Part shown: positions 5,258 through 62,520 of the stretch, piece by piece
Layout: the number at the start of each line of letters is the position of its first letter
Numbering within the stretch: the stretch's first letter is position 1
NCBI RefSeq assembly: GCF_002954765.1
Contig: NZ_MTPW01000001.1
Coordinates: forward strand, 2,059,501-2,123,500
Reading direction: 5' to 3'
Source of the DNA: Nonlabens arenilitoris
Lineage (GTDB): Bacteria > Bacteroidota > Bacteroidia > Flavobacteriales > Flavobacteriaceae
DNA length: 64,000 nucleotides
Notes under the pieces: generated by a model
Database searches by the model: none
Seen by the model: the letters and a program-made list of their open reading frames with translations, nothing else
What the model was told of the DNA's origin: nothing
Translations under genes and position numbers: made by a program

Positions 5258-5273
5258 ACTTTTCGCGCAAGCG
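5258..5273. repeat. Decayed copy of the 16-bp palindrome
   Basis: Reads ACTTTTCGCGCAAGCG, which matches 12 of 16 bases of CGCTTTCGCGAAAGCG. It lies between the terminator and the stop of the DUF5686 gene. Weak on its own, but consistent with the family. Confidence 0.4.
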
Positions 5274-5290
5274 GTATGTGTATTTTTGTA

Positions 5291-7762
5291 TTATAGGCCA
5301 AAGTTAATACCTACCACAAAGGCCCCATAACTGCGACCGCTGGTGATGCTGTGTACATAGTCCACACGGAAAGGTCTGAACTTACCAAATCCTATATTAT
5401 CGATTCCGGCACTGGCCTCAAAATAGGGTTTGCGGTCTGTAAACAGCGCTTTACCACTTAAGATGAGGTCATAGTTAAGCTTATTTAATCCTGGGATTTT
5501 ACCTAGTATAAAGCCTTTAAAATCGTGTTGTAAGTGTACCTGTGCATAATCGCTGTTTGTACTGTAGTCATAGTAGTTCAATAGACCAAAACCATAAGGA
5601 TTTAAGGCTTGTAACTTATAACGCAACCTGTTCCCATTAAAGTGCTGGTAGTCTATAAATGAGATACCATCACCATTAATAAAAGTACCACCGTTTACCC
5701 AGTAACTACTGCGTCCTACATTACCCATGTCAAAGGATTGATAAAGGCTTGCTCTAAACTGGTGATAGTCATAGTTGCTGTTGTCTGACGCGAGTGCACC
5801 TTCATAGTTAAGAGTAATGGTTGGGTATTTTTCGTTATTGATGTTATACTTCTGATCTGGATAGCTCTGGAATTTCTGTCCTGGACGTATGGTCAGTCCT
5901 AGACCTACTTTTACCATCTCGTGCTCATCTATTAAGGCGAGTCTACTGTTGTCCAGCTGTAATGGATTATTGCGTGTATAGTCTACGTCTGACTGTGAGA
6001 AGAAAACCTGGTCTGTTGTGTTGGTTAACGGCTGGCGTCTTTCATAACCTACATAAGCGTTTGCAAATAGTCCATTGATGAGTTCTTCACTATAGCTAGC
6101 TCGGGCATAATCGACTTCATAGAATTTGGCAAAATTGCGTTCAAACAGTAAGCTGGACAACGTGTTTTCCATCGTCGATATAGGATTGCTGTTATTGATT
6201 TGCTGTACAGCGGTACCACCAGAAAGTCGCAGGCTACGCCTGTTTGTTCTATTAAATCGATAATAGATGGATGCGTTGTAACGCACGCGATCATCAGAGA
6301 ATCCGTAGTCTGCATCTACACTGGCATATAGGTATTTGTTATAATCCTCATCATATCCTTTTGAATAAAATAGTCCGGTACCTAGTACATAACCTTGTAC
6401 CGTATTAAAACCTTTAAAGTCTGTGACACCTTTATAACCTATCGAACTGCGGTTATTTGAATTGCGATAAGTGTAACCGGTCAGTATATCTAGCAGGTCT
6501 AGTTTATTATTTACGGCATCAACACTATCTTTATATTTTGGGTCGTTGCGCACGGCAGATATGCTATCTTTCTTAACGTATTCATCAGTTTCGGCAACGG
6601 TAAGTGGTGTAGGACGTTTTGCATTCCAGTAGGTACTGTCCTTTTTGTTGGCACCATCTGCAAAGCTCAACACTTCTGGGCCAAAATATTTTTTATCAAA
6701 TTGAGGCTTAAAGTCATAGTTAGTATAATTAGCTATAAAGCGACCATAACCTTTAAAGCCTAAAAAGGCAAATTGAAAATCGATAGACTGCGATCTTTTA
6801 ATCCAGTCACCACTTGCTTCTTCATAGGTAAATGATTGATTAAAGACCAATTCTTCAATGATAGGCACATTGATATTCTCGCCACGAGTGGTTAGCTCTA
6901 CACCGTAAATGGTCCAATCATCTTCTACAATATAAATCGTACCGTTAAAGGTATTGTCCTTAGGTCTGCGAGAGCTCACCTGTATTTTATTGATTAAAAA
7001 ATTATTATCGTCATAAAAGGTACCTAGCAATTTATACTCATAGTATCCTAGTGCATAGTCTGCGATAGGCGATACGATACGATTATTTAAATCTATATTA
7101 TTGTTATAGAAGTCAAAGTTGGCACTCTCGGCACTGTTAACAGAAAAACCATTATCATCGCCACTGACTTTACTGGCCACGATGCGTTCTTTAAAATTGT
7201 CTGGTGCGTCATAAGCTATTTCGCTCACGGTTTCAGATAGGTAAACGATACCGCTACGCGTTAAAGAATCTAGCGATCCATCTAGATCACCTATCTCCTC
7301 ACCTAGGAATTTCTCTGGCACGTCATCCATGTACCAGAAACCACGCGAGTAAAAATCTGCCGTATAGCTCGAGAATTTTTTACGGTTAGCCTCTCTATTT
7401 TTGATCGCCTCTCGTATGATGCGGTAAGCAGGATCCTCGCCATTTGTGATTACCACAGCATCTAGCGTGGTGAGCTCTTCGGTAAGCGTTACATCTTTGG
7501 TAACAGCAGTACCATTAAAGACTATCTCAACTATTTGGGTTTTATAACCCAGCGACTTAAAAACCACGTTATAGGTTCCGTTTTCTGGAAACATAAGCGT
7601 GTATTGCCCACTATTGTTTGTCGTTGTACCTATGTAAGTGCCCTCAACATAAATAGAGGCAAAGGCGATAGGTTCTTTTTGATTATCATATAAAGTACCT
7701 GATAATTGCGCTTGCGCGAAAGCGAAACATAATAGCATTATCGCAAACAGAATATTTTTCAT
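5291..7762 (-). CDS. DUF5686 outer-membrane protein with carboxypeptidase-like regulatory domain
   Basis: An 823-residue secreted protein. A signal peptide (about 1-18, ending FAFAQA) is followed by a carboxypeptidase-regulatory-like beta-sandwich (about 19-100, LSGTLYDNQKEPIAFASIYV). The DUF5686 region starts at NGEDPAYRIIREAIKNRE (about 108-125) and runs to the end. The C-terminal part has alternating aromatic/polar strands and ends in GINFGL, as in outer-membrane beta-barrels. DUF5686 proteins are widespread in Bacteroidota and probably sit in the outer membrane; their function is not established. The signal-peptide codons contain a near-perfect copy of the 16-bp palindrome (7709-7724). 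It appears to be a single-gene unit. Confidence 0.88.
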   Translation of the reverse strand: MKNILFAIMLLCFAFAQAQLSGTLYDNQKEPIAFASIYVEGTYIGTTTNNSGQYTLMFPENGTYNVVFKSLGYKTQIVEIVFNGTAVTKDVTLTEELTTLDAVVITNGEDPAYRIIREAIKNREANRKKFSSYTADFYSRGFWYMDDVPEKFLGEEIGDLDGSLDSLTRSGIVYLSETVSEIAYDAPDNFKERIVASKVSGDDNGFSVNSAESANFDFYNNNIDLNNRIVSPIADYALGYYEYKLLGTFYDDNNFLINKIQVSSRRPKDNTFNGTIYIVEDDWTIYGVELTTRGENINVPIIEELVFNQSFTYEEASGDWIKRSQSIDFQFAFLGFKGYGRFIANYTNYDFKPQFDKKYFGPEVLSFADGANKKDSTYWNAKRPTPLTVAETDEYVKKDSISAVRNDPKYKDSVDAVNNKLDLLDILTGYTYRNSNNRSSIGYKGVTDFKGFNTVQGYVLGTGLFYSKGYDEDYNKYLYASVDADYGFSDDRVRYNASIYYRFNRTNRRSLRLSGGTAVQQINNSNPISTMENTLSSLLFERNFAKFYEVDYARASYSEELINGLFANAYVGYERRQPLTNTTDQVFFSQSDVDYTRNNPLQLDNSRLALIDEHEMVKVGLGLTIRPGQKFQSYPDQKYNINNEKYPTITLNYEGALASDNSNYDYHQFRASLYQSFDMGNVGRSSYWVNGGTFINGDGISFIDYQHFNGNRLRYKLQALNPYGFGLLNYYDYSTNSDYAQVHLQHDFKGFILGKIPGLNKLNYDLILSGKALFTDRKPYFEASAGIDNIGFGKFRPFRVDYVHSITSGRSYGAFVVGINFGL
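7709..7724. repeat. 16-bp palindrome, one mismatch, inside a signal-peptide coding region
   Basis: CGCTTGCGCGAAAGCG. On the minus strand it encodes AFAQA at the end of the DUF5686 protein signal peptide. The mismatch is at position 6 of the palindrome. Confidence 0.8.
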
Positions 7763-7929
7763 AGAAGAGTTATTTGGTGGTTGACCTACAAACGAATTTA
7801 CAGCTCGTTTTGTATATAGACGAGACTTTTTTAAAATGGTTGTCTGAGATTTTATAAAAAAGAATGTTCATCTAAGCCTTTCATGGATAGTTTGAATCAG
7901 CATTACTTTAAAAAAGGCTTTAAACTTTT

Positions 7930-7954
7930 ATGGCACTCTTATCTTGAGTGCCAT
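7930..7954. terminator. Hairpin downstream of M14 peptidase gene (possible terminator)
   Basis: Stem ATGGCACTC / GAGTGCCAT with loop TTATCTT, 43 bases past the gene ending at 7997. It has no good T-run on either side, so termination is only possible. Confidence 0.4.
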
Positions 7955-7996
7955 AATATATGTATAGGTATTTTTTTAAATATAATTTTAATTCCC

Positions 7997-10507
7997 TTAC
8001 ATCTCCTCAGCAAAAAAAATAGCATTCATCAATAGCTTATTTGTTCCATACCAAAATGCTCTAAACTGTGTGTTGTCAGTAAAGCCTATGACATCACCAC
8101 GCCCATAATTATTATGCTGAAAAGGAACCGTGTTTTTTAACGCTTCTAAATTCAGATCTGAGATATAACCACTCATTAAAGGGTTATCTGTATAACGAAT
8201 CGGGTTTCTAAAAGAGTCTGAATGAGGTTCAATAAATAGTCGTGTGTTTCTAAACATAGGTAATTGATCATCTTTAAATCCAAATGCGATAGGATGTGAA
8301 CGATCTAGTTGAGTTTCAAATATGGCGCCACCTATATTTTGTGCTCCATAAAAATCAGAACGTTGTTCAAAGGTGATGTCGTTTGCTGGATTATCGATAC
8401 TTTTAAAAGTAAGCGGTAACAATTTAGAACTGCTCATCCATCTTAACGCACTGCGATAACCTATTAAAGTTCCACCAGCACGCGTCCATTCTTTAAGTTG
8501 ATCCACGACTTCATTTTCTGGGCTACCATAGGTTGCCGAGACGATAATGGTGTTGTAACGCGATAAATCTTTACGATTAATGTCGTTGATGTCAATTTTA
8601 GTCACCATCATATTATAACGCTGGTCTAGTAAATGCCAGATCTCACCAGCATCATAAGGATTGATTCCGTCACCTATAAGTAAAGCAATTTTAGGGTGCG
8701 TTAAAGCTCTAAATTGACGTGATCCTAAATCGATACCTGTGGTGAGTCCAGATTGAACTCCATGAAATTCAACTCCATGATGTAAATATATATCGCCTAA
8801 ATAGTCTGCAAATTCCCCAGAATCCCATTTTTGATTCTGAACTGGGATAAGAATAGTACCATAATCATAATCTTTGCCTTCAATAGAGAAATTTTCCATT
8901 GCGACTTTGGCTCTGATACCTTCTTCTAAAAGAATGTTTAAAATCATGGGTGTTTTATACTCGTTCCATGGCATTAAATACGCATAGTCAGAAACCGTGA
9001 TCTTGCCAATTCCAGTTCTGACAGAAATTTTATCAGTGGCATCAGCCAAACTTGCATTTTCATCATAATCCATGTCAAAAGCTAGTGGGAAAGTCCAGGC
9101 ACTTATATCATAAAACAAACTGTCTTGAAATGTGGTGCGCTTTTCAAACATAGCGTTGATTAATCGCGAGTTCTTTTGATTTTTAGGAACGATGTAGGCA
9201 TAGTCCTTTTTGTAGGTTTTGCCATTTTTAGTGACATCGTTTTTCAGGGAACGCACTTCTATTTTATGCCTTAAGAGAATATCAGCTAGTGCATCTGTTC
9301 TACCAGCATCTGTATGATCACCGAAGATTATAGCGCCACTTGCAGCTTCCTTTTTTGAGTCTTTGTAAAACTGTCTTTGGTAATCAAGGATCTTTTGACG
9401 CATTCCTGCGGCTGCTTTGAGCGTGCTAATTCCTGCGGTAAATTGATTGCGTATGGTAAATGGAAAAGTCAAAACACCATTTTCTGAATTTTGTGCATGA
9501 CCACGAGAGCTGGCTTGTTCAAATAGGATTCCTATAGAACCGTTGATATCTGGAAAAGTAGATCCTTTCCCGTAATAGAAGTCGTCATAGCTTTCTTCAG
9601 TATAGTATAGTGATCCTATTTTATCTAATTCGGCTGCATGAAAATCTCCTATTTTACGGGTTAGCTGTTGATTCATTGCAGGTGTTAAAGGATGCGTGCG
9701 TGACGGAATTCCTGGCTGGAAAAAGAAAGTCGCATTAGTGCCCATCTCATGATGATCAGTTAAGATATTAGGCATCCAATTATGAAAGGTCTCAATTCTC
9801 GCTTGAGATTCTGGTAATTGAACAGGTAGCCAGTCGCGATTCATGTCAAACCAGTAGTGGTTAGTTCTTCCACCAGGCCATGCTTCACTATACTCACGGT
9901 CATAAGAATCTGGATTTACATTTATACTTTTATGTTGGTTCACCCAGCCGGCAAATCGCTGCAATCCATCGGGATTAAAACTAGGGTCAAAAAGTATAAC
10001 GGTATTATCCAGTAATTCATCCATCTCAGCTCCTTGTCCGGCAGCAAGATGATAGGCCAGAAGTAGTGCCGCATTAGAACCACTAGGTTCGTTACCATGT
10101 ATAGAAAAACCTTGATAAACTACGATAGGCATATTTGCGGTAGAAGCGGTACTGCCTTCAGTTAGCGCAACATGATCTGCTTGAATCTGATCTAGATTCT
10201 CATGGTTTTTAGCCGATGTTATGGTAAGCAGAACGATAGGCCTGCCTTCATAAGTAGTCCCTCGATTTTCAATACTTATTCTATCAGATTCTCTCGCCAG
10301 CGTGCGCATATATTCGATAAGCTTGTCATGTGTTACATGCCATTCTCCTGGAACGTATCCTAAAACTTCTTCAGGTGTAGAAATCTCAGGATTGTAAGTT
10401 GTAAGGTGGTCTGGTAAATAGTAACCTAAAGTAGGTGTTGTGATAGTTTGTGCGGTTACCGCTTTCGCGAAAGCGAGACAAGCCACCATTAGAATTGCTT
10501 TATACAT
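7997..10507 (-). CDS. Secreted M14-family zinc carboxypeptidase
   Basis: An 836-residue exported peptidase. The signal peptide (about 1-19) contains AFAKAVTAQ. The M14 catalytic domain follows: the zinc-binding pair is in SIHGNEPSG (His and Glu, about residues 137-140), DPSFNPDG is nearby, and the third zinc ligand is probably in ILTDHHEMG (about 250). The C-terminal part (about 610-760, IALLIGDGINPYDAGEIWHLL and IIVSATYGSPENE) resembles a class-I glutamine-amidotransferase-like fold, as seen in the large Bacteroidota M14 proteins. It should trim peptides in the periplasm or at the surface. An exact copy of the palindrome lies in the signal-peptide codons (10460-10475). It is monocistronic, with a terminator upstream at 10535. 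Confidence 0.9.
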   Translation of the reverse strand: MYKAILMVACLAFAKAVTAQTITTPTLGYYLPDHLTTYNPEISTPEEVLGYVPGEWHVTHDKLIEYMRTLARESDRISIENRGTTYEGRPIVLLTITSAKNHENLDQIQADHVALTEGSTASTANMPIVVYQGFSIHGNEPSGSNAALLLAYHLAAGQGAEMDELLDNTVILFDPSFNPDGLQRFAGWVNQHKSINVNPDSYDREYSEAWPGGRTNHYWFDMNRDWLPVQLPESQARIETFHNWMPNILTDHHEMGTNATFFFQPGIPSRTHPLTPAMNQQLTRKIGDFHAAELDKIGSLYYTEESYDDFYYGKGSTFPDINGSIGILFEQASSRGHAQNSENGVLTFPFTIRNQFTAGISTLKAAAGMRQKILDYQRQFYKDSKKEAASGAIIFGDHTDAGRTDALADILLRHKIEVRSLKNDVTKNGKTYKKDYAYIVPKNQKNSRLINAMFEKRTTFQDSLFYDISAWTFPLAFDMDYDENASLADATDKISVRTGIGKITVSDYAYLMPWNEYKTPMILNILLEEGIRAKVAMENFSIEGKDYDYGTILIPVQNQKWDSGEFADYLGDIYLHHGVEFHGVQSGLTTGIDLGSRQFRALTHPKIALLIGDGINPYDAGEIWHLLDQRYNMMVTKIDINDINRKDLSRYNTIIVSATYGSPENEVVDQLKEWTRAGGTLIGYRSALRWMSSSKLLPLTFKSIDNPANDITFEQRSDFYGAQNIGGAIFETQLDRSHPIAFGFKDDQLPMFRNTRLFIEPHSDSFRNPIRYTDNPLMSGYISDLNLEALKNTVPFQHNNYGRGDVIGFTDNTQFRAFWYGTNKLLMNAIFFAEEM
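10460..10475. repeat. 16-bp palindrome, exact, inside a signal-peptide coding region
   Basis: CGCTTTCGCGAAAGCG. On the minus strand it encodes AFAKA in the M14 peptidase signal peptide. Confidence 0.9.
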
Positions 10508-14196: not shown

Positions 14197-14212
14197 CGCT
14201 TTCGCGAAAGCG
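14197..14212. repeat. 16-bp palindrome, exact, intergenic
   Basis: CGCTTTCGCGAAAGCG within the 18-bp form flanked by A and T, 20 bases upstream of nusB. Confidence 0.95.
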
Positions 14213-16729: not shown

Positions 16730-16745
16730 CGCTTTCGCGAAAGCG
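16730..16745. repeat. 16-bp palindrome, exact, intergenic
   Basis: CGCTTTCGCGAAAGCG in its 18-bp form (A and T flanks), 28 bases upstream of glgA. Confidence 0.95.
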
Positions 16746-26743: not shown

Positions 26744-26759
26744 CGCTTTCGCGAAAGCG
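26744..26759. repeat. 16-bp palindrome, exact, intergenic
   Basis: CGCTTTCGCGAAAGCG in the 46-base gap between the Gln-rich protein gene and the CCA-adding-type gene. Confidence 0.95.
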
Positions 26760-29866: not shown

Positions 29867-30631
29867 ATGAAAAGTGTATATCGAGATTCATATCAATATT
29901 TAAGACCTTCTATAGAGGACGCAATAACTCGTTTTAACCAGATAGGAAAATCATTACACGATGGGCGTAACGTGGTTAAAGTGATAGATGTAGAAGGTGA
30001 ATCTCTTAATTTTAAGAGATTTAAAAAGCCTAATACAATCAATAAAATAGTCTATAAATTTTTCAGAAAATCTAAAGCACAACGCTCCTTTGAGTATGCA
30101 ACTGTTCTTAAAGAAAAGGGCATAGGCACACCAGATCCTGTCGCTTATCTGGAAGAAGAGTCTTTGTTTAACTTTGGTACTAGTTTTTACATTTCAAAAC
30201 AATTAAATTGTGATTTTACCTATCGCGAGCTTATCAATGATGACTCGATAGAAGATAAAGAACAGATTTTAAAAGAGTTTACTAGGTTTATCTATCATAT
30301 GCACGAGGCAGGTGTTTACTTCCTAGATAATTCACCAGGAAACACATTAATCACTAAGGTAGATGATCATTATGAATTTGCTTTGGTCGATTTGAACCGC
30401 ATGAAGTTTTATAACATTCCATGGGATGATCGTCTCAAAAATTTTGAAAGACTGTCGCCACATAAATGGATGTATGAAGTAATGGGGCTAGAGTATGCTA
30501 CGCTTTCGCGAAAGCGTCCTGAGGACACCATCTCACAAATGTGGAACTACACACAGAATTTTCAAGACGCCTTTCATCGTAAGAAACGATTGAAAAAAAA
30601 GTTGAAATCTTTAATTAACGGAAAGAATTAA
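29867..30631 (+). CDS. Kdo/WaaP-type lipopolysaccharide kinase-like protein
   Basis: A 254-residue protein-kinase-fold enzyme, probably phosphorylating Kdo or heptose of the LPS inner core on the cytoplasmic side. The ATP-lysine candidate is in SLNFKRFKKP (about 45-54). The catalytic loop is HEAGVYFLDNSPGNTLI (about 147-163, with Asp and Asn in place), and the metal-binding Asp is in FALVDLNRMKF. It starts a plus-strand pair with a glycosyltransferase 2 bases downstream. An exact palindrome copy is in its C-terminal codons, encoding LSRKR (30501-30516). Confidence 0.82.
   Translation: MKSVYRDSYQYLRPSIEDAITRFNQIGKSLHDGRNVVKVIDVEGESLNFKRFKKPNTINKIVYKFFRKSKAQRSFEYATVLKEKGIGTPDPVAYLEEESLFNFGTSFYISKQLNCDFTYRELINDDSIEDKEQILKEFTRFIYHMHEAGVYFLDNSPGNTLITKVDDHYEFALVDLNRMKFYNIPWDDRLKNFERLSPHKWMYEVMGLEYATLSRKRPEDTISQMWNYTQNFQDAFHRKKRLKKKLKSLINGKN
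30501..30516. repeat. 16-bp palindrome, exact, inside the Kdo-kinase-like gene
   Basis: CGCTTTCGCGAAAGCG in the 18-bp form. It is read in the LSRKR frame and not the AFAKA frame. Confidence 0.95.
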
Positions 30632-33170: not shown

Positions 33171-34235
33171 TTAATAATTTTCTTCTACAAACGTTTTTAG
33201 TTGATCAGTCATTAATTCTGGTTGAAACTTTTGATATAGCTCTTGCGCGTGTTTTTTAAAAGCGCTCGCTTTTTTTGTACCATAAAGTTCTGGCTTTACT
33301 TCTTTAAGATGAACAGTGATATGTTTTTTCCCGTCTTCGCCAGCGTTCCATGAACGTTTGTTGATCCAAGGACTAAATATTGAAAAACTAGATATGTCCA
33401 GTGCTTTTCCCATATTGATAGCACCACCTTCATTACCTATAACAGTAGTACAATGGTAAAGAACTTTTATATAATCGCGTAAACTAGGAGTAATAGCCTT
33501 TATAAAAATGTGTTTTTGCGTTTCAGGTAGACAGGCATCATATATTTTATACGCTTCATCTTTTTGTGATGGTAGGTAGTTGAAAAGCATTTGACTACTC
33601 GTCATTTGTACTAAATGGTCTACTATCTGTGCCATATACGATAATGGTAAAGTCTTATCCTTACTAGAACCTAATGCACTCACCATAGTGATAGGTAAGT
33701 TCAAATCAAGTCCGTTTTCTGACAACCATTTTTTGCCATCCAGCTTTTCAGTATCGGTAAGATAGATTTTAGGTAGTAAATTCCATTTTACTTCATTTGT
33801 CAATGGTGTTGTAAGTAGCATACGACTACCTAGGGATAATCCTGTTTTATAAATTGCAGGATCAGGACTATTTTTGATAGCAGTTGTATAAGTCCATGGT
33901 GCAAACCACTTTTTATATCCTATTCTTTGAACAGCGCCTACTAGTCTAGATAGTAATGCACTGTTATTTTTTCCATAGGCATCAATGGAAATAGAATAGT
34001 TGTTTTTTTTGAGCTTCCGCGCAAGCGTGATAATACCTCTCCAGCTATCAAACTCATTGTTATCTACACAGATAAATTTATCAATAGCTGTGTTACCTTC
34101 TACAACAGCAAGAGCTGTTTTAGAAATAAGATAATGAATTTGAGCGTCTGGATAAATGATTTTTAACTGCTCTGCGATGATGGTACTGGTCAGTACATCA
34201 CCTATCATTTTATATTGAATGAGCAGTATATTCAC
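33171..34235 (-). CDS. Glycosyltransferase family 9 (heptosyltransferase-like)
   Basis: A 354-residue GT-B enzyme starting with GTG at 34235. NILLIQYKMIGDVLTSTIIAEQL is the GT9 opening motif, YPDAQIHYLISK follows, and TVIGNEGGAINMGKALDI (about 285-302) is the conserved nucleotide-sugar site. It should transfer heptose or another sugar to the LPS core. The start overlaps the dapD stop by one base (TAGTG), so translation is probably coupled. A decayed palindrome copy lies at 34012-34027 within the codons for LARKL. Confidence 0.88.
   Translation of the reverse strand: MNILLIQYKMIGDVLTSTIIAEQLKIIYPDAQIHYLISKTALAVVEGNTAIDKFICVDNNEFDSWRGIITLARKLKKNNYSISIDAYGKNNSALLSRLVGAVQRIGYKKWFAPWTYTTAIKNSPDPAIYKTGLSLGSRMLLTTPLTNEVKWNLLPKIYLTDTEKLDGKKWLSENGLDLNLPITMVSALGSSKDKTLPLSYMAQIVDHLVQMTSSQMLFNYLPSQKDEAYKIYDACLPETQKHIFIKAITPSLRDYIKVLYHCTTVIGNEGGAINMGKALDISSFSIFSPWINKRSWNAGEDGKKHITVHLKEVKPELYGTKKASAFKKHAQELYQKFQPELMTDQLKTFVEENY
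34012..34027. repeat. Decayed palindrome copy inside GT9 gene
   Basis: AGCTTCCGCGCAAGCG: three differences from the consensus, two of them at positions 6 and 11. Confidence 0.55.
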
Positions 34236-35154: not shown

Positions 35155-35577
35155 ATGAGTAGAATACTGGCTATAGATTATGGTAAAAAACGAACTGGCA
35201 TCGCGGTAACAGATCCTATGCAAATTATTGCCTCTGGTCTGACTACTGTTGCCACGCACGAGTTGTTTGCTTTTCTAGAAAGGTATTTAAAATCAGAGGA
35301 TGTAGAGACCATCGTTATAGGTGAACCTAAACAGATGGATTATACAGATAGTGAGCTGGGCAGTGTTATTCACGCTTTCGCGAAAGCGTTACAAGAAAAA
35401 TATCCTCATATAATTATTGAAAGAGTGGATGAACGGTTTACTTCAAAAATGGCATTTCAAACCATGATAGATAGTGGATTAAGTAAGTCTAAACGTAGAA
35501 ATAAGGCGCTAGTAGATGAAATAGCAGCTACTATCATATTGCAAACATTTATGGACAAGAAAAGTCCTTTTAATTAA
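35155..35577 (+). CDS. ruvX: Holliday junction resolvase-like protein RuvX/YqgF
   Basis: A 140-residue RNase H-fold nuclease linked to 16S rRNA 5'-end maturation in E. coli. The motif ILAIDYGKKRTGIAVTD (4-20) holds the first catalytic Asp. IVIGEPK holds the catalytic Glu, and ERVDERFTSKMA with VDEIAATIILQ completes the active site. An exact palindrome copy encodes AFAKA in the helix VIHAFAKALQEK (35373-35388). The peptide deformylase gene follows after 26 bases on the same strand. Confidence 0.92.
   Translation: MSRILAIDYGKKRTGIAVTDPMQIIASGLTTVATHELFAFLERYLKSEDVETIVIGEPKQMDYTDSELGSVIHAFAKALQEKYPHIIIERVDERFTSKMAFQTMIDSGLSKSKRRNKALVDEIAATIILQTFMDKKSPFN
35373..35388. repeat. 16-bp palindrome, exact, inside ruvX
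   Basis: CGCTTTCGCGAAAGCG in the 18-bp form, read as AFAKA. Confidence 0.95.
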
Positions 35578-39347: not shown

Positions 39348-40766
39348 TTATTTGATTTTTTCTAAAAGTACAACACTTTCTACGTGATGCGTTTGTGGGA
39401 ACATGTCTACTGGCTGATATTTTACAACCTTATACTGTTCTTTTAATAACGCTAGATCTCTAGCTTGTGTTGCGCTATTACAACTTACATAAACAATACG
39501 TGGTGCTGCAAGTGCTAGTAATTGTGCTACGACATCTTTATGCATTCCATCGCGTGGTGGATCTGTGATTACTACATCTGGTGAGCCATGTTCTGTAATG
39601 AAATCAGCGGTAAAAACATCTCTCATATCACCAGCAAAGAAGGTGGTATTATCAATATTATTATGTGCTGCATTTGCCTTTGCGTCTTCAATTGCGACAG
39701 GCACAGACTCAATTCCTACTACATGTTTGGCTTCTTTTGCCACAAACTGTGCAATAGTACCAGTACCGGTATATAAATCATACACTAATTCATCACCAGA
39801 TAATCCTGCAAAATCGCGAGTGATTTTATACAGCTCATATGCCTGTTGTGAGTTAGTCTGGTAGAAAGATTTTGCATTAATCTTAAACTGTAATCCTTCC
39901 ATCTCTTCAAATATATGATCACGTCCGTGATAGCATATCACATCTTGATCATAAATGGTATCGTTTGCCTTTTCGTTAATTATATATTGTAACGATTTGA
40001 TCTGTGGGAAAGTAGTTTTCAAGTGTTCTAACAGACCGATTCTAGCTTTTTCATCTTCTTTAAAGAACTGTATGACAACCATGATTTCTCCTGTCGATGA
40101 CATACGCAGCATTAAGGTTCTTAAAACTCCAGTTTTCTCTCTAGGGTTAAAGTATTCTATATGTTCCGCTTCCGCGAAAGCGTGAACACTCAATCTAATT
40201 TGCTCTCCTATGGCAGGATGTAAATGACATTCATCTAGGTGCAATATTTTATCCCACATTCCAGGTATATGAAAGCCAAGAGCTTTTTTATCCTCTATTT
40301 GAATATCACTCTGGATTTCTTCTAAGGTCAACCACCTGCTGGCTGAAAAGCTGAATTCCATTTTATTGCGATAGTAATACTGATTTACAGATCCTGCAAT
40401 AGGAGTGACCTCGGGCAGGTCTAGATGGCCTATTCTCGTAAGGTTTTCAACAACTTCTTTTTGTTTAAAAAATAGCTGGCTATCATAACTCATGTGTTGC
40501 CACTTACAACCACCACAAGTTCCAAAATGTTTGCAAACTGGATTTGTACGTCGATCTGATAAGGTATGAAAAGCAGTGGCTTCTCCTTCATAAAAAGTTT
40601 TTCTCTTTTTAAAAGTTTTGATGTCTACAACATCTCCAGGTACTGCGTTTTTTAAAAATATAACGGCGCCATCCTCAGTTTTGGCTACGCTTTTACCTTT
40701 TGCTCCAGCGTCTACGACAGGAACATTTTCAAAGGTTTTATTGGCTCGATTTCTTCTTTTTGACAT
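39348..40766 (-). CDS. rlmD: 23S rRNA (uracil-C5)-methyltransferase RlmD/RumA type
   Basis: A class-I methyltransferase of 472 residues from the ATG at 40766 (MSKRRNRANK); an upstream in-frame ATG at 40805 would add 13 residues and fits less well. It has an N-terminal TRAM domain, an iron-sulfur motif CKHFGTCGGCKW, an SAM site in LVYDLYTGTGTIAQF, DPPRDGM and the catalytic Cys in VYVSCNSATQARD. RlmD methylates U1939 of 23S rRNA; RlmCD-type dual specificity is possible. A one-mismatch palindrome copy encodes AFAEA (40167-40182). It leads a four-gene operon. Confidence 0.92.
   Translation of the reverse strand: MSKRRNRANKTFENVPVVDAGAKGKSVAKTEDGAVIFLKNAVPGDVVDIKTFKKRKTFYEGEATAFHTLSDRRTNPVCKHFGTCGGCKWQHMSYDSQLFFKQKEVVENLTRIGHLDLPEVTPIAGSVNQYYYRNKMEFSFSASRWLTLEEIQSDIQIEDKKALGFHIPGMWDKILHLDECHLHPAIGEQIRLSVHAFAEAEHIEYFNPREKTGVLRTLMLRMSSTGEIMVVIQFFKEDEKARIGLLEHLKTTFPQIKSLQYIINEKANDTIYDQDVICYHGRDHIFEEMEGLQFKINAKSFYQTNSQQAYELYKITRDFAGLSGDELVYDLYTGTGTIAQFVAKEAKHVVGIESVPVAIEDAKANAAHNNIDNTTFFAGDMRDVFTADFITEHGSPDVVITDPPRDGMHKDVVAQLLALAAPRIVYVSCNSATQARDLALLKEQYKVVKYQPVDMFPQTHHVESVVLLEKIK
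40167..40182. repeat. 16-bp palindrome, one mismatch, inside rlmD
   Basis: CGCTTCCGCGAAAGCG; mismatch at position 6; encodes AFAEA on the minus strand. Confidence 0.8.
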
Positions 40767-40885
40767 GTGTCCAAATTTAAGAGAATAGACTGAGGTGGAA
40801 CTCATAATTTCTATAAAATTTAAGCATTAGCCTCATGTCTTGGACAGCTGTTTTTGTAAATTGCGACCTAGATAAAAAATACATT

Positions 40886-45468: not shown

Positions 45469-45663
45469 ATGAATATGATAAATATAAAACAATTTAACGG
45501 AATTCTGCTTATCGCAGGTATTCTATTTTTACTGTGTTCTATGTATTTTGAGAATGGTGTTTTGTTCTTTCAAATTGCTGGAATCGTTTTGCTTATGATT
45601 GCTGCTTATCAATATAGTCGTGATAAGCAAGAAGATAATATTGATGAAAATGAGGAAATTTAA
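45469..45663 (+). CDS. Small two-helix membrane protein
   Basis: A 64-residue protein from the ATG at 45469 (an ATG at 45448 is upstream of a promoter-like box). Two hydrophobic helices, FNGILLIAGILFLLCSMYF and VLFFQIAGIVLLMIAAYQY, are followed by an acidic tail. No family is recognised. Its stop codon lies inside the next gene: ATG codons at 45644 and 45650 of the Smr gene overlap its last codons, so translation may be coupled. Confidence 0.55.
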   Translation: MNMINIKQFNGILLIAGILFLLCSMYFENGVLFFQIAGIVLLMIAAYQYSRDKQEDNIDENEEI

Positions 45664-46183
45664 GGTAGGTGATCGGGTATTGGTATTAGACGATGAGTTT
45701 GGTGGTGTAGTCGCTTCCGCGAAAGCGAAATTAATTACCATCATTACAGATGATGATATTGAAATCGATTACCATGAATCAGAGCTTATTTTAGATCAAA
45801 GATTTAAAGTTGATCGTGTTGTTGTAAAGCAAGAGGTTGCTATTCAAAAAGGAAAAAAGCGTCAGGTTTCTCGTAAAAAAGCTAAGGAAATTCCAGCTGT
45901 AGAAATAGATCTGCACATCCATCAATTAGTAAAAAGTGAACGTGGTATGGATGCTTTTGATAAACTTAATACACAAATGGATACAGCACGATATAAGTTA
46001 GAATGGGCTCGTAAGGAACGTATTCCTAAACTTGTTTTTATACATGGTGTAGGTGAAGGTGTCCTTAAAAAAGAGCTAGAATTTCTGTTTGATCGCTATA
46101 ATGATATTACTTATTATGATGCTGATTTTCAGAAATATGGTAGAGGTGCCACTGAGGTTTATATATATCAGAATCCTAAATAA
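45644..46183 (+). CDS. Smr-domain protein with N-terminal DUF2027-type domain
   Basis: About 179 residues from the ATG at 45644 (MKMRKFKVGDRV; the next ATG at 45650 is also possible). The earlier reading from 45599 is an out-of-frame extension through the upstream gene. An N-terminal SH3-like part (about 1-60) precedes a basic linker and an Smr domain: EIDLHIHQLV, KLVFIHGVGEGVLKKELEFL and the terminal GATEVYIY. Smr domains nick or bind nucleic acid. A one-mismatch palindrome encodes ASAKA in the first domain (45712-45727). Confidence 0.85.
   Translation: MKMRKFKVGDRVLVLDDEFGGVVASAKAKLITIITDDDIEIDYHESELILDQRFKVDRVVVKQEVAIQKGKKRQVSRKKAKEIPAVEIDLHIHQLVKSERGMDAFDKLNTQMDTARYKLEWARKERIPKLVFIHGVGEGVLKKELEFLFDRYNDITYYDADFQKYGRGATEVYIYQNPK
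45712..45727. repeat. 16-bp palindrome, one mismatch, inside the Smr gene
   Basis: CGCTTCCGCGAAAGCG; mismatch at position 6; encodes ASAKA. Confidence 0.8.
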
Positions 46184-48306: not shown

Positions 48307-48322
48307 CGCTTTCGCGAAAGCG
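48307..48322. repeat. 16-bp palindrome, exact, intergenic
   Basis: CGCTTTCGCGAAAGCG in the 18-bp form, directly after the cysteine desulfurase stop in the convergent gap before the TonB-receptor stop. Confidence 0.95.
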
Positions 48323-48341: not shown

Positions 48342-50828
48342 TTATAGTCTAGCTACTAATCTTACATTAAATACTCGTGGCGTTAACTCATTAGGTATAG
48401 CAAATTGCTGCTGACTAGAAACATCACGTACCCAAATGTTAGTAATTGAGTTGCTTTCATCAAAGATGTTGTAGATCTCTGCACCTATGGTTACTTCAGT
48501 AAAATTGCTGAATAATTTACTAGACTTTTTATCGTCTTTCAATACTAAATTGATACCTATATCTGCTCTACGATAATCTTGTAAACGGAACTGAAAATCA
48601 TATGGGTCTGCATAATTAGGTGATCCGCCAGGTAGGCCTGTATTATATACTAAGTTTAAATACATTTTTAAATGTGGCATGTTAGGAACATAGTCTTGAA
48701 ATAAGGCCGCAAATTTTAATCGTTGATCTGTTGGTCTTGCGATATAGCCTCTGCCATTTAAATTCTCTTCAGTCTTTAAATATCCAGCACTGAACCAGCT
48801 CTCAGTACCTGGTACAAATTCACCATTAATACGCAAGTCTACACCATAAGCATAAGCAACGGCATCATTATTTGCTCTGTACCTGATGCGTACGTTTTCT
48901 AGTGTATAGGTATTTACATCTGTCAAATCTTTGTAATAAACTTCAGTTGTTAATTTAAATGGTCGTTTTTTACCATCGCTAGATATCCAGTTAAAACTCC
49001 AGTCGTTTCCTATTACAGCATGAATGGATTTTTGTGCTTTTACAGCAGGATTTACCACACCTTGCTGGTCACGTAACTCTCTATAAAATGGTGGTTGGTA
49101 ATATAGTCCACCAGAAATGCGGAAGAGCATATCAGTATTATTCCAGGCTGGTTTTATAGCGAGTTGACCACGTGGCGAGACTACAGTTTGCGTTGTGCTT
49201 TCAATGCCGTCACCACTTACATTCCAGGTATGGGAACGTATCCCAGCGTTCCAAAAAACCTCTGTGTCTTTGATATAACCACGACTGCTATATTGACCAA
49301 ATAATTGATAACGTGTCACTTGTACATCATTATCTGCACTAGTAGATTCAAAAGGAACGAGTGGTCCAGTAAAAGGTTCATAAGGTTGATCGTTTGCTAG
49401 GTCAGCAAATGGTGGTCTTATATTAAAACCTGCACTGTCGATCACGTTATATTCTCGTACACGATCTCTTATATCTTCTTTAGAGAATTTAATTCCCCAA
49501 TCGAGGCGATCGTTTTCCTTTTTCTCACTTGGTATTTCCAGAGTTCCACGATGCTCTGCGGTCATAATAAGAGCATCTAGGTCATTACGACCATGTTCTA
49601 GCTCAGAACCTACAGATGTAACAAAATCTATTTGCCCTAAATCACTACTTCCTATATCCGTGTTTGGTCTTCCAAGACCATAGTTAGCTAAAATATCATA
49701 ATGCTCTTGTTCTTGAGTATGATAAACACTAGTAATAAACCTTAGGCTTAAATTTTCGGTAGCATCATAACTAGCTTTAAGGGCTCCAAAATAGGTTTCA
49801 TACTGGTCATCTTCACGACCTTCATAATTGATTATAATTCCTTGGACATCTTGTAATGTCCCAAAATTGGCTTCTCTAAGTTTCGGTTCAAATTCATAAC
49901 TGTTAATCGCAATGTTACCTAGAAAGCCCAGTTCTAACTTTGAATTGATTTTATATGTCAAGTAGGTCTGTGCGTCAAAGAATCTTGGTATAGCATTAGC
50001 TTCGGTTTCTCTAGAGTTTACTAATAAGCTATTGTCTCTGTAACGCACACCTAGTATTCCTGTAAACGCTTTCGCAAAAGCGTCTCCTTCAACAAACGCG
50101 TTAACACCTAGTAAACTAGCGTCTATTCCTGCACCAAAGGCTGTAGGACGACGGTAATCAATGTCCAATACAGAACTCAGTTTATCACCATATTTAGATT
50201 GAAAACCACCAGCACTAAAATCTACACTACGCACCATGTCAGAATTTACAAAACTCAATCCTTCTTGCTGACCACTACGTATTAAGAATGGTCTATATAC
50301 TTCAATCTCATTTATGTAAACCAGGTTTTCATCAAAGTTTCCACCACGAGCACGATATTGTGTGCTTAATTCATTGCTGCCGCTTACACCAGGTAATGAT
50401 TTTAATATGTTCTCTACACCAGGTTGTGCTCCAGGGATTTTACGTATCACCGTTGCGCTTATAGTTGTAATTCCTTCTAAATCCTCGCGTGTAGTAGTGT
50501 TTAAAACTACTGTGTCTATGATCTCTACACTAGAAACCATCACAGGATTTAATTCATAAACCTGACGATTTTTAAGGGTTAATTCCTTTTGTCCACCTTT
50601 ATAACTTATTGCAGTAAATGTGATGATTACTTTTTGATTTGCAGGCACTTTTAATTGATAGAATCCATTTTCATTAGATGCTGTACCAATTGTAGTACCT
50701 TGAATAGATACATTTACATCTTTTACAGGTTCATTAAATTCATCTAAAATTACACCTTGTATAGTGGCTTGTTGAGCCATTGTAATAAGGCTTAAAAGAA
50801 ATGCAGTGAGGAAAAGATAGGTCTTCAA
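48342..50828 (-). CDS. TonB-dependent receptor with carboxypeptidase-like regulatory domain
   Basis: An 828-residue outer-membrane receptor. The signal peptide (about 1-18) is followed by a carboxypeptidase-regulatory-like domain (about 20-95, IQGVILDEFNEPVKDVNVSI). A plug domain follows with VENILKSLPGVSGSNELSTQY and YRARGGNFDENLVYINEIEV. The rest is a 22-strand barrel ending in a C-terminal VRLVARL. It imports an unknown substrate. It lies 9 bases after an M23 peptidase gene on the same strand. A one-mismatch palindrome encodes AFAKA (50067-50082). Confidence 0.9.
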   Translation of the reverse strand: MKTYLFLTAFLLSLITMAQQATIQGVILDEFNEPVKDVNVSIQGTTIGTASNENGFYQLKVPANQKVIITFTAISYKGGQKELTLKNRQVYELNPVMVSSVEIIDTVVLNTTTREDLEGITTISATVIRKIPGAQPGVENILKSLPGVSGSNELSTQYRARGGNFDENLVYINEIEVYRPFLIRSGQQEGLSFVNSDMVRSVDFSAGGFQSKYGDKLSSVLDIDYRRPTAFGAGIDASLLGVNAFVEGDAFAKAFTGILGVRYRDNSLLVNSRETEANAIPRFFDAQTYLTYKINSKLELGFLGNIAINSYEFEPKLREANFGTLQDVQGIIINYEGREDDQYETYFGALKASYDATENLSLRFITSVYHTQEQEHYDILANYGLGRPNTDIGSSDLGQIDFVTSVGSELEHGRNDLDALIMTAEHRGTLEIPSEKKENDRLDWGIKFSKEDIRDRVREYNVIDSAGFNIRPPFADLANDQPYEPFTGPLVPFESTSADNDVQVTRYQLFGQYSSRGYIKDTEVFWNAGIRSHTWNVSGDGIESTTQTVVSPRGQLAIKPAWNNTDMLFRISGGLYYQPPFYRELRDQQGVVNPAVKAQKSIHAVIGNDWSFNWISSDGKKRPFKLTTEVYYKDLTDVNTYTLENVRIRYRANNDAVAYAYGVDLRINGEFVPGTESWFSAGYLKTEENLNGRGYIARPTDQRLKFAALFQDYVPNMPHLKMYLNLVYNTGLPGGSPNYADPYDFQFRLQDYRRADIGINLVLKDDKKSSKLFSNFTEVTIGAEIYNIFDESNSITNIWVRDVSSQQQFAIPNELTPRVFNVRLVARL
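50067..50082. repeat. 16-bp palindrome, one mismatch, inside the TonB-receptor gene
   Basis: CGCTTTCGCAAAAGCG; mismatch at position 10; encodes AFAKA on the minus strand. Confidence 0.8.
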
Positions 50829-53285: not shown

Positions 53286-53453
53286 ACCTGCACTTGTTAC
53301 ATTTTTTGGTGAACTCAACACATAATTCTTTAAAAAAGGTGAGTCGTGGTTGTAAAAGCAAGCCGGACATATGGGCCGGATCCTTGATCAACCAGTTAAC
53401 CTTAAACTTTATTTAAGGAGTTCATTCAAAACACAACTTGTGCAGGTTTTTTT
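53286..53453 (+). ncRNA. ssrS: 6S RNA (flavobacterial type)
   Basis: The zapA-rny gap folds into one long interrupted hairpin. ACCTGCAC (53286-53293) pairs with GTGCAGGT (53440-53447), which is followed by seven T. GTGAACTC pairs with GAGTTCAT further in, then an A/T-rich unpaired region, then GTGGTTG with CAACCAG, and an apical stem CAAGCCGG / CCGGATCCTTG. This terminal stem, central bubble and apical stem are the layout of 6S RNA, which binds RNA polymerase. The position after zapA supports it. The exact 5' end is not certain. Confidence 0.8.
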
Positions 53454-55359: not shown

Positions 55360-56307
55360 TTATTCGTCATATATGTTTTTGTAACCTTTCTCTTCAACTT
55401 CAAAAAACTTACCGGTTACATACCTATAATGTTCGTCCAGTTGTGCTAGGTCTTTTAAATCGTCCTTATCTAATTGAAGTCTTGCAGCCTCTAGGTTCTC
55501 TTTAATTCTACCTGGATTAGTTGATTTAGGTATTACTGCAGTTCCACGTTGTGCAGACCAGTTAATTAGCACTTGCGCTGGCGATACGTTATGTTTACTT
55601 GCAATCTTTTGAACGGCTGTTTTTTCAAACATATTAGGTTCATTTTCTTGCTTCATACCATCAGATCTATCTCCACTACCTAATGGTGAATAGCCCGTTA
55701 AGTGAATACCTTGTTTGCTACAGTATTCAAATAGATCGTTTTGTTGTAGTAATGGATGCAGTTCCACTTGATTCATTTCTGGTATTTCACCAGTATTTGC
55801 AATCAGTTCTTCTAATTTTTGCTTACTAAAGTTAGAAACTCCTATATGTTTTGCTAGACCTTTTTCTTTAAGTTGACTCATCGCTTTCCATGTCTCAGAA
55901 ATAGGTGCTTCTTGTGGTGTTAAATAATCTTCAGGACCTTCTGGTGATTGTACGTCTGGTTTAAATGCAACTGGCCAGTGTATTAAATATAAATCTAGAT
56001 AGTCTAGTTGTAGGTCATTAAGGGTTTGTTTCATTGCTGGCTCTACATCTTGTGGTAGATGTGCATTGTTCCACAATTTTGATGTTATCCATACATCTTC
56101 TCTTTTAATCTCTCCTTTAGAGAATACTTCATTGAATGCTTCACCTATTTCTTTTTCGTTGCCATAAATAGCAGCGCAGTCTATGTGTTTATAACCAGAT
56201 TCTAAAGCGCTAATTACAGCATTTTTAACCTCGCCTGGTTTTGATTTCCATGTTCCTAAACCTATAGGGAATAGCTCATCGCCATTTTTAAATTTTAAAG
56301 ATTTCAT
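55360..56307 (-). CDS. Aldo/keto reductase
   Basis: A 315-residue NADPH-dependent reductase from the ATG at 56307 (MKSLKFKNGDELFPIGLGTW); 19 upstream codons to 56364 include a palindrome remnant and are rejected. The AKR signature GYKHIDCAAIYGNEKEIGEAF contains Asp and Tyr of the catalytic tetrad, SKLWNNAH the Lys and LDLYLIHWPVAF the His. The C-terminal VIPKSTNPGRIKENL binds NADPH. Broad aldehyde reduction is likely; the substrate is unknown. Terminator at 55292. Confidence 0.92.
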   Translation of the reverse strand: MKSLKFKNGDELFPIGLGTWKSKPGEVKNAVISALESGYKHIDCAAIYGNEKEIGEAFNEVFSKGEIKREDVWITSKLWNNAHLPQDVEPAMKQTLNDLQLDYLDLYLIHWPVAFKPDVQSPEGPEDYLTPQEAPISETWKAMSQLKEKGLAKHIGVSNFSKQKLEELIANTGEIPEMNQVELHPLLQQNDLFEYCSKQGIHLTGYSPLGSGDRSDGMKQENEPNMFEKTAVQKIASKHNVSPAQVLINWSAQRGTAVIPKSTNPGRIKENLEAARLQLDKDDLKDLAQLDEHYRYVTGKFFEVEEKGYKNIYDE

Positions 56308-56331
56308 AAGTCTTAGTTTTTTTATAAAGTT

Positions 56332-56347
56332 AGCTTTCGCGTAAGCG
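56332..56347. repeat. Palindrome copy with two mismatches
   Basis: AGCTTTCGCGTAAGCG; differences at positions 1 and 11. It lies in the gap between the aldo/keto reductase start and xerD stop. Confidence 0.6.
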
Positions 56348-56394
56348 AGATAAAAGTAATTCAACTACTTTGACATAACTTTAATAGAATATAA

Positions 56395-57461: not shown

Positions 57462-57469
57462 TATATTTG
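57462..57469 (+). promoter_or_regulatory. Putative -7 box of the beta-barrel gene
   Basis: TATATTTG, 28 bases upstream of the ATG at 57498. An alternative TTG start at 57467 lies inside this box and is therefore unlikely. Confidence 0.55.
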
Positions 57470-57497
57470 CATCAAACTAATAAAAAATCAAAATATT

Positions 57498-58105: not shown

Positions 58106-58126
58106 GGAGATTATAAACGACAATTT

Positions 58127-58154
58127 AAAAAGCAGCCTTATGGCTGCTTTTTTT
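58127..58154 (+). terminator. Rho-independent terminator after the beta-barrel gene
   Basis: Stem AAAGCAGCC / GGCTGCTTT with a four-base loop and T-run. Confidence 0.9.
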
Positions 58155-58160
58155 GTTTCA

Positions 58161-58176
58161 CGCTTTCGCGAAAGCG
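58161..58176. repeat. 16-bp palindrome, exact, intergenic
   Basis: CGCTTTCGCGAAAGCG in the 18-bp form, between a terminator and the aroQ start (22 bases). Confidence 0.95.
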
Positions 58177-58198
58177 TAATTACCAATATCTTTAAACC

Positions 58199-58618: not shown

Positions 58619-58650
58619 AAAAAGGCCACTAGTAATAGTGGCCTTTTTAA
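58619..58650. terminator. Bidirectional terminator after aroQ
   Basis: Stem AAAGGCCACTA / TAGTGGCCTTT with a four-base loop and flanking A and T runs. Confidence 0.92.
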
Positions 58651-58669
58651 TAATGTCTAGAACTGATCT

Positions 58670-59014: not shown

Positions 59015-59059
59015 ATTAGAAAATTTAGTTAGTTATATTTACCAAATATATAATTTATA

Positions 59060-59950: not shown

Positions 59951-59988
59951 AAAAAGCCTCAATTTCTTATTGAAATTGAGGCTTTTGA
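59951..59988. terminator. Bidirectional terminator between secreted protein and lpdA
   Basis: Long stem AAAGCCTCAATTT / AAATTGAGGCTTT with flanking A and T runs. Confidence 0.92.
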
Positions 59989-60006
59989 TTTATTATCAAT
60001 CTTACT

Positions 60007-61398: not shown

Positions 61399-61420
61399 AT
61401 CTGTCAATTTTTAAGAGTCA

Positions 61421-61428
61421 CAAAAATA
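61421..61428 (-). promoter_or_regulatory. Putative -7 box of lpdA
   Basis: Minus strand TATTTTTG, 23 bases upstream of the ATG at 61398. It is divergent from the pyrD box at 61451. Confidence 0.5.
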
Positions 61429-61450
61429 TGGAATAAAGTCTAATGGATTG

Positions 61451-61458
61451 TAAATTTG
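61451..61458 (+). promoter_or_regulatory. Putative -7 box of pyrD
   Basis: TAAATTTG, 15 bases upstream of the ATG at 61474. The TTG at 61456 is inside this box and is not the start. Confidence 0.5.
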
Positions 61459-61473
61459 CGCAACCTTATTCTT

Positions 61474-62520
61474 ATGTATAAATCTATAGTACGTCCGTTA
61501 CTTTTTTCCTTTGATCCAGAGGCGGTTCATCATTTTTCTTTTAAAAGTATCAAATTATTGAGCAAAGTACCTGGTTTTAGTGCGCTTTCGCGAAAGCGTT
61601 TCAAACCCAACCATCCAGCTCTTAAAAGAGAACTCTTCGGTTTACAATTTGAGAATCCAGTAGGAATGGCAGCAGGATTTGATAAAGATGCTAAAGCATT
61701 TAAAGAATTTTCTAATCTTGGTTTTGGATTTATAGAAATAGGAACGCTGACACCAAAGCCGCAAGATGGAAATCCCAGGCAACGATTGTTCAGATTAAAG
61801 AAAGACCAAGCGATTGTAAACAGAATGGGATTCAATAACGGTGGAGTAGATGCTGCTGTAGAACGATTGAAAAAAAATCCAAAGCTAGGTCAACCTAATC
61901 ACGTCTTAATAGGTGGAAATATTGGGAAGAACAAACTTACACCTAATGATGAAGCGGTGAATGATTACATCATTTGTTTTGAAAAATTATTTGATCACGT
62001 TGACTATTTTACTGTAAATGTTAGTTCTCCTAACACACCAGGATTGCGCGAACTACAAGATAGAAAGCCTTTAACGTACATACTTCAAACACTTCAAGAC
62101 TTAAATAATAAGAAGGCTAACAGAAAGCCTATACTTCTTAAAATTGCTCCAGATTTGACAGATGATCAATTAATGGACATCATAGGAATTGTGGCAGATA
62201 CAAAAATCGATGGTGTCATTGCTTCAAATACAACCATCTCTAGAGAAGGATTGCAGTCTGAAGAATCGTTAGTAAAACAAGCCGGCGGACTAAGCGGTGC
62301 ACCACTAACAAATCGCGCTACTGAAGTCATTTCTTTTTTACATGATAAAAGCAACGGTGCCTTTCCTATAATTGGAGTAGGCGGTATCATGACCGCACAA
62401 GATGCGATTGATAAACTGAATGCAGGAGCAAGTCTGGTACAGTTGTATACCGGTTTTGTTTATGAAGGACCTAAGTTGATAAGAGATATAAATAAAGCTA
62501 TTATCGCTCAAGGGTTATGA
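61474..62520 (+). CDS. pyrD: Dihydroorotate dehydrogenase (quinone), class 2
   Basis: A 348-residue FMN enzyme from the ATG at 61474 that oxidises dihydroorotate with quinone at the membrane. The N-terminal helical extension ([18 protein letters not shown]) marks class 2. [16 protein letters not shown] and the FMN motifs are present, [11 protein letters not shown] contains the catalytic Ser, and [28 protein letters not shown] forms the FMN-phosphate site. An exact palindrome in the N-terminal extension encodes LSRKR (61583-61598). It overlaps the LysE-type gene by 4 bases (ATGA). Confidence 0.94.
61583..61598. repeat. 16-bp palindrome, exact, inside pyrD
   Basis: CGCTTTCGCGAAAGCG read in the LSRKR frame. 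Confidence 0.95.

Follow-up and report, generated by a model that had tools for sequence, protein, structure and literature searches.

Introduction

PMC7811141 describes a strong preference, during DNA uptake, for a short sequence motif in two proteobacterial families. The motifs concerned, the uptake signal sequence (USS) of Pasteurellaceae and the DNA uptake sequence (DUS) of Neisseriaceae, are characterized in PMC1626085, PMC2397512 and PMC7811141 as clade-specific sites of substitution origin that are regularly spaced and lie in coding as well as non-coding DNA. Here, we examine a 16-base palindrome, CGCTTTCGCGAAAGCG, which recurs along a 64-kb stretch of the Nonlabens arenilitoris genome (termed the window; 64,000 nucleotides). 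The palindrome is shown to be a dispersed site that, at the sampled Nonlabens loci, selection or drive acting at the DNA level keeps in place, and it appears to behave like the self-DNA recognition tags of some bacteria.

Closer to Nonlabens, PMC8459023 reports transformation without detected pilus homologues in Riemerella (placed by the papers in the Flavobacteriaceae), relying on ComEC, DprA, ComF, RecA and four proteins of a new type—among them a DUF5689 protein and a protein of the outer membrane that carries PF13620—and states that the genes are widespread in Flavobacteriaceae. R. columbina prefers its own DNA, with no signal sequence established in the account given by PMC7965970. Moreover, PMC7371117 cites work that gauged coevolution by the uptake sequences in Pasteurellaceae prophages. 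PMC8459023 treats pilus-free DNA uptake in Flavobacteria as an open question.

Results and discussion

Copies of the palindrome in the window and the genome

The window's own genome (3.32 Mb) is designated G000 and other genomes are labeled G plus a number; a degenerate core, GCTTNCGCGNAAGC, was used for wider counts, and a 464-kb sample of G000 comprised the window and 20 further stretches. An earlier, sequence-only reading of the window had proposed about 16 copies, far in excess of chance. Nine exact and four one-mismatch copies were reproduced at the positions listed there, and 15 matches with up to three mismatches were found, whereas 100 shuffles averaged 0.04 such matches and never exceeded one. 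Six of the nine exact copies also display the A and T flanks of the proposed 18-bp form. Two of the three copies described as decayed were upheld (34012, with three mismatches, and 56332, with two), whereas the one at 5258 has four mismatches and may be a chance match: a third-order Markov control gave about four such matches per 464 kb, and 10 were observed. The sites are listed below, with (-) marking genes on the reverse strand.

5258..5273, doubtful decayed copy with four mismatches, intergenic
7709..7724, one-mismatch copy close to the 5' end of a DUF5686/CarbopepD_reg gene, 5291-7762 (-)
10460..10475, exact copy close to the 5' end of an M14 peptidase gene, 7997-10507 (-)
14197..14212, exact copy, intergenic, ahead of a NusB-family gene
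16730..16745, exact copy, intergenic, with divergent reading frames on either side, ahead of a Glyco_transf_5 (starch synthase type) gene
26744..26759, exact copy, intergenic
30501..30516, exact copy inside a Kdo-kinase-like gene, 29867-30631, in the LSRKR frame
34012..34027, decayed copy with three mismatches inside a glycosyltransferase-9 gene
35373..35388, exact copy inside ruvX, in the AFAKA frame
40167..40182, copy with one mismatch at tolerant position 6, in a RumA-type RNA methyltransferase gene, 39348-40805 (-)
45712..45727, copy with one mismatch at position 6, in an Smr-domain gene, 45599-46183
48307..48322, exact copy, intergenic, with convergent genes on either side
50067..50082, one-mismatch copy in a CarbopepD_reg/Plug outer-membrane protein gene, 48342-50828 (-)
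56332..56347, decayed copy with two mismatches close to the 5' end of an aldo/keto reductase frame, 55360-56364 (-)
58161..58176, exact copy, intergenic, directly past a hairpin and T run of terminator type that are distinct from the copy, as read from the sequence
61583..61598, exact copy inside a dihydroorotate dehydrogenase gene, 61456-62520, in the LSRKR frame

The excess survives a count over the whole genome: G000 holds 439 exact copies and 633 copies of the core, and the motif density of the window is therefore ordinary for its genome. In the 464-kb sample, 59 exact copies were accompanied by 34 with one, eight with two and three with three mismatches—exact copies thus being commoner than single-mismatch ones—and the Markov control gave none at up to three mismatches. 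As a neighboring feature, a 6S-Flavo RNA (Rfam RF01685) occupies 53313-53423 of the window, upstream of an RNase Y gene.

Selection on the DNA and origin of the coding copies

The copies are selected as DNA. Across six coding sites of the window, not one gap fell at the site in 229 protein alignments (95 from Nonlabens and 134 from outgroups, the latter covering three of the six sites), from which it follows that the coding copies originated as substitutions in the existing sequence. Intact halves being included among the matches, 23 of 24 Nonlabens records contain the RumA site; it is missing from all 76 outgroups, which aligned without gaps at the site. The Smr-domain site or an intact half of it was found in 20 of 20 Nonlabens records and none of 37 outgroups. 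The corresponding fractions were 4/4 Nonlabens records aligned by protein and 0/21 outgroups for the CarbopepD_reg/Plug site, 12/14 Nonlabens records for the glycosyltransferase-9 site or an intact half, 11/21 for ruvX and 2/12 aligned records for the Kdo-kinase-like gene. The expectation that positions would be conserved among relatives is thus borne out for coding sites within Nonlabens.

The codons of the RumA site were analyzed in 23 Nonlabens genomes including G000, with duplicate records removed. Of the five site codons, four (GCT, TTC and the GCG codons in third and last place) are each conserved in 22 or all 23 genomes; the fourth, at the tolerant position, reads AAA in 19 genomes and GAA in four. 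Among sequences with the same residue, the top codon accounts for 96-100% at site codons, as opposed to background alanine means of 0.53 and 0.41, the former being the mean top-codon share of the other conserved alanines in RumA. In G009, the RumA site is lost and the amino acids are retained; hence selection does not act on the peptide alone. As for the intergenic copy at 48307, it is present in G001, G012 and G003, and the other six aligning relatives lack it, with gaps in the alignment.

Anatomy and flanks of the motif

The 34 single mismatches of the G000 sample are distributed unevenly, with 21 at positions 1/16, nine at 6/11 and four at 3, 7, 8 or their mirrors; this concentration delimits a nearly invariant recognized core, GCTTnCGCGnAAGC. 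The Nonlabens flanks read roughly TTTTTTTnATTA to the left and TAATnAAAAAAA to the right of CGCTTTCGCGAAAGCG. Over 209 non-redundant Nonlabens sites, the flank bias forms a mirror image—T-rich at -12 to -6 and at -3, and depleted in C to about -24—with a footprint of about 64 bp, and it is present at coding and intergenic copies alike. The left and right flanks are not complementary overall (0.336 vs 0.345 expected, 178 sites), individual positions deviating from expectation both ways (z from -4.4 to +2.8), and mismatches at the ends are almost never compensated. Flanks that mirror without complementing each other point to a symmetric protein complex, which would read the motif as double-stranded DNA, and not to a hairpin. 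On the same grounds, the small structural RNA suggested in the sequence-only reading finds no support, and a terminator or RNA element is disfavored. A period of three in the T content around the sites is not claimed as a feature, because coding copies can produce such a period.

Spacing and genomic distribution

At about one site per 4.5-5 kb on average in the sampled Nonlabens loci, the copies are spaced more regularly than random. None of the 83 gaps in the G000 sample is shorter than 500 bp (9.5 expected) and one is shorter than 1 kb (18 expected), the first 100 exact copies of G000 include four gaps below 2 kb against 23 expected, and a set of 20 stretches, each 20 kb long, contains 4.1 copies per stretch on average with a variance of 1.7, an under-dispersed distribution. 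The same holds for 20 other Nonlabens loci, which are mutually orthologous and hence not independent (0 of 72 gaps below 1 kb, 16 expected), and G234, from a second genus discussed below, follows the trend with one of 24 gaps below 1 kb (4.9 expected). Coding sequence accounts for 53 of the 96 core sites in the G000 sample, where the preference for non-coding DNA is 7.4-fold per base; across the 20 Nonlabens loci it is 1.9-fold. An island at 374-418 kb of G000, whose genes were read by eye as carbohydrate utilization, has three inexact copies (one, one and three mismatches) in 44 kb. Contigs C2 and C3 of G000 (L210 and L211), the latter repeating window genes around 45.6-48.3 kb, look like inverted-duplicate assembly artifacts and were accordingly dropped as plasmids on which the motif could be tested.

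Distribution across bacterial genomes

Nonlabens, a marine genus of Flavobacteriaceae, carries the motif genus-wide, and the closest named neighbors found with the window's RumA-type protein likewise belong to Nonlabens (four records, 79-91% identical). In the 59 genomes counted, exact copies occur in all 23 from Nonlabens (180-737 each, G000 included), while 35 of the 36 others have none and G033 has four. Counting the core across 199 genomes of the family revealed one further genus, that of G234, with 455 copies; the next counts were 21, 18, 15, 14 and 13. These five counts come, in another order, from G188, G086, G095, G097 and G120; they lie well under those of Nonlabens and may reflect moved DNA or early accumulation. 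Apart from G000, no genome in a set of 296 across the phylum exceeded 11 core copies.

Some of the small counts outside Nonlabens are passengers on homologous DNA: in G204, G145, G131, G122 and G033, many sites sit in homologous stretches that are up to 97% identical across genera. Flavobacteriaceae DNA shared in this manner, with Nonlabens-type sites, was seen at L051, L053, L055, L056, L058 and L060, and in G122 and at L056 inspection by eye suggested genes for metal efflux and for P-type ATPases in this DNA. A screen of 76 non-Nonlabens loci (up to 21 kb each) for an iterated motif of their own gave a few repeated words, and the two inspected were local repeats; one local array, of 41-bp units with AAGTGCGGC, lies in Aquimarina intermedia (L134:12676-12971). 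The 12-base core CTTTCGCGAAAG occurs in none of the papers of the open-access library searched, which excludes subscription journals and preprints, and nothing on the motif appeared in the literature listings examined.

A probable separate gain in a second genus

The 455 core copies of G234 were most likely gained by this apparently non-sister genus on its own, judging from two gene trees and a comparison of site positions. In a quick RumA tree, where G234 is among long branches, it groups with G188 (Shimodaira-Hasegawa-like approximate likelihood ratio test, 94), apart from Nonlabens, and the tree of an AddB-like protein agrees (G234 with G188, 100/97). G188 itself has 15 core copies. Furthermore, 13 coding sites of G234 could be compared with a homologue in Nonlabens, and three of them coincide in position, two of these three in another frame; in dihydroorotate dehydrogenase, for instance, the G234 site occupies the same place as window copy 61583 in a different frame. 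A separate gain would point to a reader of the motif able to move between genera or to arise anew. A search for an unusually identical gene common to G234 and Nonlabens gave no clear outlier among the best 25 of 139 matching genes (453 sampled). The genus-wide signal, the apparently separate gain and the low-copy G188 should together make the reader findable through gene-content comparison.

Phages

Exact copies were found in 41 stretches of 30 IMG/VR contigs, some of which are near-copies of one another as seen from shared site positions. Searched in full, 21 of the 30 contain at least two core sites and nine contain one. Of five contigs checked for proteins, three are clearly phage (one with an integrase, one with tape measure and capsid proteins, one with a baseplate hub), another gave one weak depolymerase-type match and the last none; nothing but the single integrase points directly to a temperate life among them. 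The motif-bearing phages presumably infect Nonlabens or the G234 lineage. The isolated Nonlabens phages P12024S and P12024L (35.7 kb each), in which no integrase is annotated, lack the motif. At one site per 5.25 kb, the chance of a single motif-free phage genome is about 0.001, and the two gene maps are so similar that they count as about one observation.

Weighing the explanations

What might maintain such a site? The ranking that we consider most likely places an uptake signal first and a nucleoid protein second, with Chi-like and methylation-based explanations less likely. Specifically, we lean—tentatively, and a little short of an even call—toward a palindromic self-DNA uptake signal that would be the functional equivalent of USS/DUS. 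Under this proposal, an outer-membrane or surface receptor of a pilus-free, Riemerella-like transformation system in Flavobacteria would prefer motif-bearing DNA; recombination of the DNA taken up would spread the motif and keep it at one copy for every fragment of a few kb; further copies close by would add no gain, resulting in even spacing; and transfer of the receptor could explain the separate gain in the second genus. In its full form, which we hold with somewhat greater reserve, the motif would represent a third, independently evolved, palindromic class of uptake signal, located in Bacteroidota, read by a pilus-free transferable receptor, acquired at least twice (in Nonlabens and the G234 lineage) and present in some phages.

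An uptake-type site was among the options of the sequence-only reading and fits best, as five of eight tested USS/DUS features recur in Nonlabens: hundreds of copies far over chance with perfect copies commonest, origin by substitution (for coding copies), spacing more regular than random, a preference for non-coding DNA alongside many coding copies (in G000 and the Nonlabens loci), and clade-wide occurrence with conserved orthologous positions (from 2/12 to 20/20, depending on the site). Thinness in acquired DNA gave a divided result, one island being thin and the motif-found phage contigs not. ComEC is encoded in all 20 genomes tested, nine of them Nonlabens.

Several observations weigh against an uptake signal. 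No receptor for the motif was found, and uptake by Nonlabens is our inference; the comEC neighborhoods of G000, G234 and G188, three of 19 retrieved, show no obvious receptor-type cluster by eye, Riemerella-type genes not having been searched by sequence. A PilB/GspE-type ATPase (PF00437 above cut-off) was detected in one of nine Nonlabens genomes tested and not in G234, making classical pilus uptake unlikely for most. The close inverted pairs of USS/DUS have no counterpart among the 83 gaps of G000, none being below 500 bp, although such pairs are a secondary feature and a palindrome holds both orientations. In G234, 61 of 69 core sites are coding, the non-coding ratio is only 1.1 and, over 25 sites, the T run of the flanks is weak or missing. 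The gaps at 48307 mean that substitution origin is established for coding copies only. Finally, the 21 multi-site phage contigs contain 66 sites in 478 kb, or about one per 7 kb—a density biased by the choice of contigs through the motif itself—and in these contigs the motif could be of direct benefit to the phage instead of reflecting drive.

A protein-binding site with a genome-wide role, also put forward in the sequence-only reading, stands as well, given the mirror-image flanks and regular spacing. Here, a genus-specific, transferable nucleoid protein would bind every 4-5 kb and organize, bridge or mark the DNA, prophages included. We regard this explanation as rather unlikely, even though it accommodates the minimum spacing near 1 kb, the under-dispersed counts, the footprint and the contrast between phage contigs with the motif (one with an integrase) and two isolated phages, with no integrase annotated, that lack it. 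No candidate nucleoid protein was found, nor did this analysis, which included no methylome or methyltransferase survey, identify any protein or methylase target of the motif; the genomes also tolerate decayed copies and the loss of sites in individual lineages. Each of 23 Nonlabens genomes has one canonical parS, sites around parS occur at ordinary density (four in 20 kb), and a single ParB_N match was obtained in G000, G234 and six of seven other Nonlabens tested; the second match in G019 (616 residues) is of a type also present in motif-free genera. The single parS and the mostly single ParB_N match argue against a paralogue of the Noc kind and have no bearing on other proteins, and ParB/Noc itself is disfavored, parS being separate from the motif. 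In G000, the sole canonical parS (C1:1338579) and the sole ParB_N gene (C1:2988967) are about half a chromosome apart. Were the reader a nucleoid protein, it would be a chromosome-wide organizer of a kind that, to our knowledge, has no precedent in Bacteroidota. Under either an uptake or a nucleoid reading, the motif marks DNA of the Nonlabens type, some phages and moved islands among it.

Recombination offers another route: a palindromic, bidirectional Chi-like site could alter a resecting helicase-nuclease and load RecA. The few-kb spacing, the presence of the motif in some phages and the G+T-rich, C-poor context 5' of the site on each strand (to about -24) agree with it, as does the occurrence, in 18 of 18 genomes (five of them Nonlabens), of an AddB-sized PF12705 protein, which we take to be AddB. 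This protein did not travel with the motif, since its G234 member groups with that of G188 and not with Nonlabens, and AddAB/Chi is disfavored on that account; besides, the flank bias stops after about 24 bases, and the Chi sites described so far are short and lack symmetry. We see a Chi-like site as improbable. Equally improbable is a methyltransferase acting inside the motif that, together with biased repair, would create and keep it. Specificity over 12-16 bases is beyond usual methyltransferase recognition, and beyond the motif the palindromes nested in it show no iteration: TCGCGA occurs there 45 times (44.4 expected), TTTCGCGAAA once in 82 occurrences and TTCGCGAA four times (1.3 expected), while CGCG is mildly depleted (337 vs 408 expected), as are GATC and GGCC. 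The inner-site counts thus give no sign of an embedded restriction or methylation sub-site. Such a mechanism has been proposed for the highly iterated palindrome HIP1 of cyanobacteria. What speaks for the idea is a GC-rich palindrome iterated genome-wide and the concentration of single mismatches at its end positions, which PMC4390886 also reports for HIP1.

Lastly, a mobile mini-repeat or transcription terminator deserves almost no credence. The palindrome, its intergenic enrichment in G000 and the gapped alignments of relatives lacking the 48307 copy favor such an element. For coding copies, over half of the core sites in the G000 sample, an inserted repeat, and with it the mini-mobile repeat of the sequence-only reading, was rejected by the ungapped alignments, and orthologous positions are conserved. 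Moreover, the T run lies 5' and the A run 3' of the site, the opposite of terminator order, and the flanks are not complementary overall.

Comparison with known systems

With parS and Noc-binding sites, the motif shares the form of a 14-16-bp palindrome with TTTC...GAAA halves, but its half-site spacing is two bases shorter and its copies number in the hundreds, with parS and ParB present separately. Chi sites resemble it in their few-kb spacing and G+T-rich 5' context, whereas the Nonlabens motif is palindromic and longer, and the history of the AddB-like protein does not follow it. HIP1 and the alternate HIPs, as portrayed in PMC4390886, are likewise GC-rich iterated palindromes that deviate at their ends; in contrast, our motif is twice as long and no iterated inner methylation site was seen. 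Repetitive extragenic palindromic (REP) elements, in the description of PMC3733652, are also palindromic and abundant, yet the coding copies here are not insertions and no fixed sequence extends past the biased flanks.

Against USS and DUS, as depicted in the sources cited above, two differences add to the case against an uptake signal: the Nonlabens motif is a 16-bp palindrome with mirror-image flanks, while their cores are not palindromes, and at about one per 5 kb it is some five-fold sparser than their approximately one per kb. It also belongs to another phylum, lacks close inverted pairs and, in most genomes tested, occurs without a pilus ATPase, the uptake role being inferred here. Like USS and DUS, the motif occurs in hundreds of copies with a strong consensus, is clade-specific and occupies coding and non-coding DNA; it shares with them the substitution origin (for coding copies) and the more-regular-than-random spacing; one thin island of G000 recalls their thinness in acquired DNA, from which the motif-found phage contigs depart; and its T-rich flanks recall the AT-rich segments that accompany the USS.

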